From: Candidatus Binatia bacterium
Lineage (GTDB): Bacteria; Desulfobacterota; Binatia; UBA1149; CAITLU01
Assembly: GCA_036493895.1 (NCBI GenBank)
Contig: DASXOZ010000070.1
Location: 164,868-228,867 of the forward strand
Direction of reading: 5' to 3'
Length of the DNA stretch: 64,000 bases
In this document: positions 7,552 to 9,420 of the stretch, in pieces
Position numbering within the stretch: position 1 is the first letter of the stretch
Layout: each line of letters starts with the position of its first letter
Translations under genes and position numbers: made by a program
The notes under the pieces: model-generated
Seen by the model: the letters and a program-made list of their open reading frames with translations, nothing else
What the model was told of the DNA's origin: nothing
Database searches by the model: none

Positions 7552-8634
<1,083 letters not shown>

Positions 8635-8688: not shown

Positions 8689-8718
8689 AAGGCCCCGGGA
8701 ATCGCTTCCCGGGGCCTT
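8689..8718 (-). terminator. Attenuator terminator upstream of aroF
   Basis: On the minus strand AAGGCCCCGGGAA (8706-8718), loop GCGA, TTCCCGGGGCCTT (8689-8701) forms a perfect 13-bp stem followed by TTTCGTTTT. It sits between the leader peptide stop and aroF, only about 55 bp before the aroF start. The GGCCCCGGG of its 5' arm is also complementary over 9 nt to CCCGGGGCC inside the leader peptide coding region (8769-8777), giving a mutually exclusive antiterminator. Confidence 0.88.
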
Positions 8719-8752
8719 GCGTCCGCTCGCGCGGTTCGAGGTTTTTATCCTT

Positions 8753-8827
8753 CTACGCGCACGTCGCCGGCCCCGGGTCCTGCCCGAAGATAAAATACCA
8801 GACGACGAAAACAGGGCTCTTGCGCAT
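8753..8827 (-). CDS. Aromatic-rich leader peptide of aroF
   Basis: A 24-codon frame starts with ATG at 8825-8827 and ends with TAG at 8753-8755. Residues 1-14 read MRKSPVFVVWYFIF, so five of eight codons in the FVVWYFIF core specify Phe, Trp or Tyr; the tail is GQDPGPATCA. The core lies just before the antiterminator segment, and the terminator follows the stop. This is the arrangement of classical ribosome-mediated attenuators (trp, pheA). No Shine-Dalgarno sequence is seen; the ATG lies about 3 nt after the predicted transcription start, so the message would be leaderless. Confidence 0.8.
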   Translation of the reverse strand: MRKSPVFVVWYFIFGQDPGPATCA

Positions 8828-8836
8828 GACGAAGCT

Positions 8837-8865
8837 ACTTTAGCGGCTCGGCCGGGTACTGGCAA
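8837..8865 (-). promoter_or_regulatory. Promoter of the aroF leader
   Basis: On the minus strand TTGCCA (8860-8865), a 17-bp spacer and TAAAGT (8837-8842) make a good sigma70-type promoter downstream of sufT. The -10 ends 9 bp before the leader-peptide ATG. Confidence 0.65.
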
Positions 8866-8883: not shown

Positions 8884-9420
8884 CTAAATGCCGAGCTTGC
8901 GGCGTCCCTCGTCGGAGATCATGTGCGCCGTCCACGGTGGATCCCAGACGACGCGGACGCTGGCGTCGCGCACCGACGGGATCGAGCGAAGCTTGTCCTC
9001 GGCATCGCCGGCGATCGCGCCGCCCATTCCGCAGCCTTGCGCCGTCAGCGTCATCTTGACGTCGACGCGGTAGCCGCCTTCGGGAAGATCGCTGATGCGC
9101 GTGTCGTAGACGAGGCCGAGATCGACGATGTTGACCGGAATTTCCGGGTCGTAGCAGGTCTTGAGCGCAGCCTCGACGAGCGCATCGATGTCGCCTTCAC
9201 CCGACTCGAGCAGCTTTGCCTCGGCAGGCATTTCCTTTCCGAGCGCATCGGCATCGCGGCCGGCAATGCGGAACAGGCCGCCGTAGGCCGGCGCCTGCAC
9301 GGTGAAAGATCCGCCGAGCGACTGGCTGAGATAGATCTCGGTGCCGGCGGCCAGCGTCACCCGGTCTCCCTGGGGGATTTTGACTGCCTCGCACGCGCGA
9401 ATGAGCTCGATGTTTTCCAT
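8884..9420 (-). CDS. sufT: SufT-like Fe-S cluster assembly protein
   Basis: Protein of 178 residues matching SufT: an N-terminal region with an APAYGGLFRIAGRDADALG segment, followed by a MIP18/DUF59 domain (CYDPEIPVNIVDLGLVYD, then MTLTAQGCGMGGAIA and VRVVWDPPW). SufT proteins take part in maturation of iron-sulfur proteins under high Fe-S demand. No other suf gene is in the window. The ATG has no clear ribosome binding site, but TTGAGC-17-TAGGGA ends 7 bp before it, suggesting a leaderless message. Divergent from moaA, itself a 4Fe-4S enzyme. Confidence 0.9.
   Translation of the reverse strand: MENIELIRACEAVKIPQGDRVTLAAGTEIYLSQSLGGSFTVQAPAYGGLFRIAGRDADALGKEMPAEAKLLESGEGDIDALVEAALKTCYDPEIPVNIVDLGLVYDTRISDLPEGGYRVDVKMTLTAQGCGMGGAIAGDAEDKLRSIPSVRDASVRVVWDPPWTAHMISDEGRRKLGI

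Follow-up and report, generated by a model that had tools for sequence, protein, structure and literature searches.

The aroF-type DAHP synthase (3-deoxy-7-phosphoheptulonate synthase) gene of an uncultured member of the class Binatia (Binatota) is preceded by an element that is very probably a ribosome-mediated transcription attenuator. A leader open reading frame (ORF) with a run of codons for the product amino acids Phe, Trp, and Tyr stands before the gene, an intrinsic terminator lies between this ORF and the structural gene, and an antiterminator shares the 5' arm of the terminator. The ORF, the terminator, and the complementarity between them are conserved and covary among relatives. Such an element would connect the first reaction of aromatic biosynthesis with the amino acids that the pathway yields. 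Sequence comparison thus supports the initial annotation, which had proposed an attenuator with an aromatic leader peptide, as right in kind. The type of switch is classical, while its location, its occurrence in several phyla, and its predicted nearly leaderless start look undescribed.

The leader region upstream of aroF

The window (the whole stretch of DNA analysed, 64,000 nucleotides) carries aroF on the minus strand, with its start at position 8634. A sufT-like gene upstream on the same strand ends at 8884, and the leader lies in the intergenic region of 249 nt. Its parts, with the gene, are as follows.

7552..8634, minus strand: aroF-type DAHP synthase, the putatively controlled gene (TIGR00034 aroFGH, 471 bits; PF00793)
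8837..8865, minus strand: sigma70-like promoter of the leader transcript, the best-scoring site within 110 nt upstream
8753..8827, minus strand: leader peptide ORF MRKSPVFVVWYFIFGQDPGPATCA, 24 codons; an aromatic leader is kept in 13/23 Binatia orthologues
8786..8809, minus strand: candidate control codons Phe7..Trp10 Tyr11 Phe12 Ile13 Phe14, as read in the leader ORF
8791..8794, minus strand: conserved TTT Phe codon, then A (12/12 leaders)
8783..8789, minus strand: segment 1 (CTTCGGG), 5' arm of a possible hairpin 1:2 (RNAalifold)
8769..8777, minus strand: segment 2 (CCCGGGGCC), antiterminator 5' arm of 9 nt within the leader ORF, from its pairing with segment 3
8706..8718, minus strand: segment 3 (AAGGCCCCGGGAA), terminator 5' arm that doubles as antiterminator 3' arm, from pairing and covariation
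8689..8701, minus strand: segment 4 (TTCCCGGGGCCTT), terminator 3' arm, from pairing and covariation
8690-8686, minus strand: T run after the terminator, read in the sequence

The promoter consists of a -35 element TTGCCA (8865-8860) and a -10 element TAAAGT (8842-8837) separated by a 17-bp spacer, and the terminator is a perfect 13-bp hairpin with the loop GCGA, followed by T's. The promoter, the 24-codon ORF, the 13-bp terminator, and the 9-nt antiterminator segment of the initial annotation are all found in place on the minus strand. It had overlooked the short distance of 9 nt between the end of the -10 element and the ATG, the possible segment 1, and the conserved TTT-A.

The 653 small ORFs of the 64-kb window include no second ORF of this aromatic type, and a comparable one (12-40 amino acids, ATG or GTG start, at least 5 Phe/Tyr/Trp within 9 residues) arose in 8/4000 dinucleotide shuffles of the 249-nt intergenic region. 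The terminator score was equalled in 0/400 such shuffles. Given the peptide, the 2:3 complementarity of the window by itself is unremarkable (p=0.13); the significance of the 9-nt complementarity comes from the relatives rather than from the window alone.

None of the leader families in Rfam (Trp_leader, Phe_leader, His_leader, etc.) matches at gathering score, and the matches at relaxed thresholds are chance only (His_leader, 19 of 49 bits). Nor was any T-box or riboswitch covariance-model match found at this locus. The same genome has a DAHP synthase paralogue on another contig (51% identical to the window aroF), upstream of which no aromatic leader was found.

Alternative pairings and distribution among relatives

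Both stems, terminator and antiterminator, carry the compensatory changes that the initial annotation had suggested as a check. In the terminator (3:4) and 1:2 helices, we counted 19 cells changed on both sides, versus 6.0 in shuffles, and the consensus structure outscores all slid versions of itself. Segment 2 sits over Pro-Gly codons of the leader ORF and pairs with segment 3 more strongly than do synonymous recodings of the same peptides (combined p=2.5e-9, 17 loci); likewise, exchanging terminators among the leaders weakens the pairing with the leader tails (permutation p<1e-5). Segments 2, 3, and 4 change together in L089/L125/L131 (CCAGGGC-GCCCTG-CAGGGC) and in L166 (GGGGT-ACCCC-GGGGT), while the pairing in L171 has a wholly different sequence (GGAGTCG with CGACTCC). 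The two alternative hairpins expected of a ribosome-mediated attenuator are thus borne out by the recoding and partner-swap tests of 2:3 and by the covariation of the terminator.

RNAalifold detected hairpin 1:2, in which 2/5 pairs have changed at both positions, and a version of it can be drawn for the majority of leaders. Because it is no stronger than the peptide and codon usage predict when compared with synonymous recodings (p=0.60), it is treated here as putative. In a folding snapshot, a ribosome at the stop codon leaves most of the 2:3 pairing possible, which counts against an attenuator.

The orthologue set comprises 23 sequences at ≥61% identity in 148 Binatia genomes, one further short fragment having been set aside. 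An aromatic leader with a terminator is present in 13 of the 23 (the window, L083, L084, L085, L086, L087, L089, L091, L093, L094, L115, L118, and L088, the last of which is counted although it is cut by a contig edge), belonging to families f1, f9, f13, f15, and f16. The aromatic codons are thus conserved in relatives, another point on which the original proposal could be checked. The other 10 orthologues (nine of family f7 and one of f8) have no leader, which counts against the attenuator, and where the upstream region of a more distant Binatia copy was read, it contained no aromatic leader with a terminator.

Outside Binatia, leaders occur in Myxococcota (L125, L131, L138, and L128), in Latescibacterota and its class (L126, L159, L160, L162, L165, L166, and L171, mostly Phe/Tyr), and in one genome of Chloroflexota (L127). 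Leaders of this kind accompany related DAHP synthases in four or more phyla. Nitrospirota orthologues are close in the enzyme, yet showed no convincing leader with a terminator. On a FastTree phylogeny of 150 DAHP synthases, leader presence requires 8 changes, versus 23.6 with shuffled labels. As judged from this tree, the leader is old within the Binatia branch, with losses, and in the other branches it probably arose or was kept separately.

Apart from the aromatic run and the Pro-Gly codons, the sequences of the leader peptides diverge strongly. Five Latescibacterota leaders (L126, L159, L160, L162, and L165) have 9 Phe/Tyr codons in 10 (e.g., RYFYFFYFYAF), and most of them have a Shine-Dalgarno-like site and a normal 5' untranslated region (UTR). 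In L088 (1-143; G003), of the same family as the window, the leader stop codon TGA seems to lie upstream of segment 2 (CACACCGGGGCAG), as in Escherichia coli pheL; the contig end cuts this leader.

Transcript start, control codons, and proposed mechanism

The -10 element ends 9 nt before the ATG in the window. In each of the 16 Binatia and Myxococcota leaders tested, the best promoter within the 110 nt searched upstream has its end 7-18 nt from the start codon; the distance is 25-52 nt in the Latescibacterota leaders. In sigma70 promoters, the -10 element is usually followed by the transcription start after 6-8 nt. Taken together, these distances suggest that the leader mRNA is leaderless or nearly so, with a predicted start near 8830 and a 5' UTR of ~3 nt in the window.

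The Phe codon immediately before segment 1 is TTT in 12/12 leaders, compared with 7/21 of the other leader Phe codons, which are mostly TTC (p=1.6e-4), and 8/53 of the Phe codons in the aroF genes (p=3e-8). The following base is A in 12/12 leaders. Since the codon to which it belongs encodes Thr, Ser, or Ile, and the first base A is all that these codons have in common, TTT-A seems to be conserved for the sake of the RNA and not of the peptide.

In the mechanism that the sequence predicts, transcription would begin a few bases upstream of the leader ATG, and the peptide would be read from a nearly leaderless mRNA. When the cell is short of charged tRNAs for Phe, Tyr, and probably Trp, the ribosome would stall at Trp10-Tyr11-Phe12-Phe14. 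Segment 2 would remain available for pairing with segment 3, which is the 5' arm of the terminator, and RNA polymerase would read through into aroF. With a good supply, the ribosome would cross segment 2 and reach the stop codon during the synthesis of segment 3. Segment 2 would then be either masked or paired with segment 1, segments 3 and 4 would form the 13-bp terminator, and transcription would end before aroF.

A terminator is natural behind the sufT-like gene, which lies on the same strand, and the hairpin could be merely that, the aromatic ORF being a chance occurrence. We regard this as extremely improbable: the promoter is located after the upstream gene and ahead of the hairpin, covariation accompanies the conservation of both the ORF and the antiterminator segment, and leaders are conserved in 13 Binatia genomes and persist despite different upstream sequence. 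It is also very unlikely that the leader peptide or the terminated leader RNA works in trans, as a small protein or sRNA, besides or instead of attenuation. There is a precedent for this in the peTrpL/rnTrpL of Sinorhizobium meliloti, a leaderless leader peptide with trans functions (PMC7298713), but the strong divergence of the peptides outside the aromatic run and the Pro-Gly codons argues against it, as does the finding that the strong covariance-model matches (see below) all lie in cis before DAHP synthase.

Which amino acids a cis-acting attenuator of aroF would sense depends on the position of its control codons. We modelled the stalled ribosome with a footprint that reaches from 15 nt upstream to 12 nt downstream of the A-site. 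A ribosome halted at the conserved TTT does not block segment 2 in any of the 13 leaders, whereas one halted at the late Trp codons of f9, f13, f15, f16, and Myxococcota, which lie in segment 1, covers most of segment 2. It is quite conceivable, if somewhat short of probable, that only Phe (and Tyr) is sensed and that the Trp codons are there by chance or because the TGG of segment 1 pairs with CCA/CCG of segment 2. The mostly Phe/Tyr leaders of Latescibacterota are in line with this, as is the AroR leader of Corynebacterium glutamicum (Phe-Tyr-Phe), which is reported to respond to Phe and not to Tyr (PMC11802643). However, hairpin 1:2, the would-be reason for TGG, is without statistical support, and the leaders of the window's family (L001, L083, and L084) carry Trp as codon 10, ahead of both Tyr and TTT, a position at which a stalled ribosome does not block segment 2. 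This geometry gives good support to the sensing of Phe (and Tyr); Trp sensing is plausible for the window's own family but doubtful for the others. The earlier claim that one leader senses all three aromatic amino acids is consequently supported only in part: well for Phe and Tyr, plausibly for Trp10 of the window, and doubtfully for the late Trp codons of most relatives, at which a stalled ribosome would cover the antiterminator segment.

Known systems and further leaders in Binatia

Aromatic leaders before DAHP synthase genes have precedents. In C. glutamicum, as summarised for Neshat et al. 2014 in PMC11802643 (see also PMC4046766), aroF is under ribosome-mediated attenuation through AroR; this system resembles that of the window in having an aromatic leader upstream of a DAHP synthase gene but belongs to an actinobacterium and has Phe-Tyr-Phe only, and we liken the two leaders by description, not by homology. 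In Acholeplasma, a Mycoplasma relative, the predicted motif uORFC-13-1 places an upstream ORF with at least one Phe codon and a terminator before aroF (PMC8632094), as in the window, although it has a ribosome binding site. An attenuator was also hypothesised for E. coli aroF. In the open-licence papers searched, we found no aroF leader attenuator described for Binatota, Myxococcota, or Latescibacterota. The initial annotation, which knew of no such leader for aroF in this kind of lineage, was therefore right in that the lineage appears undescribed, and aroF leaders as such are reported for C. glutamicum and predicted for Acholeplasma.

The E. coli pheL-pheA system (and pheM-pheST) shares with the window a Phe-rich leader, segments 1-4, and a terminator with a U tail, and pheL, like the Binatia leaders, has a TTT Phe codon followed by A directly before segment 1. 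In contrast, these systems control prephenate dehydratase or a tRNA synthetase, and in pheL segment 2 follows the stop codon, whereas it lies inside the ORF in the window; pheL also has a Shine-Dalgarno-like site (AAGGAAAC). A stretch of 15 bases (TTTTACCTTCCCCTG) is identical between E. coli pheL (L187 1100-1147) and L093, the f15 Binatia leader. In both it occupies the equivalent functional position, the last TTT Phe codon and segment 1, and may reflect convergence or shared constraint; E. coli pheM also carries TAC TTT AGC. The trpL leader-peptide mRNA of S. meliloti begins at its ATG (PMC7298713), as is predicted approximately for the window, but its leader contains Trp only and controls trpE(G). 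Some features of the Binatia leader are unusual, namely, the predicted nearly leaderless start, the fixed UUU-A, and three aromatic amino acids in one leader. The leaders form a clean comparative set for examining the influence of codon position, of codon choice (UUU), and of leaderless initiation on attenuation.

A covariance model built from 13 leaders recovered all 12 complete Binatia aroF leaders in the 148 Binatia genomes at E <1e-16 and nothing else at that level. Because eleven Binatia leaders were training sequences, this result is a measure of specificity and not an independent discovery. The window's own genome gives matches with E between 1e-5 and 1e-2, which are ends of porin genes and other terminators.

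Among its weak matches, the model reveals further attenuator-like leaders in this uncultured phylum. They include Leu leaders before leuA in family f12 (LGLLLILAL; L201-L209). Besides these matches, Leu-rich leaders with a terminator lie upstream of leuA in the order of the window's genome (L229-L234), and that genome itself has the Leu leader MFFAADTLASLLLLRGPSGAQAAV with a terminator upstream of leuA (2-isopropylmalate synthase; L235, G000:C30). A further weak match is a Trp leader, MNCRRISVGWMTWRWHADASACAPVL (..VGWMTWRW..), which precedes trpE together with a terminator in another genome (L216, G101); no trpE leader was seen in the window's genome. Given these Leu, Trp, and Cys leaders (the last described below) besides those of aroF, attenuation would be a common device in the class Binatia. 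Tentatively, one might go further and suppose that Binatota run amino acid genes largely by attenuation from nearly leaderless leaders (Phe/Tyr/Trp for aroF, Leu for leuA, Trp for trpE, and Cys-Cys-Cys for sulfate uptake), and that in the window's family the aroF leader combines the signals of Phe, Tyr, and Trp by the order Trp-Tyr-Phe before the antiterminator, with the fixed UUU as the key stall site.

Cys-Cys-Cys leaders with a terminator, also among the weak matches, precede sulfate-binding-protein-like genes in four genomes (G118, G005, G016, and G056) and look like cysteine attenuators; the copy of this gene in the window's genome (L242) has no Cys leader. At the loci L206, L221, L223, and L224, a promoter-like site lies about 7-9 nt before the ATG.
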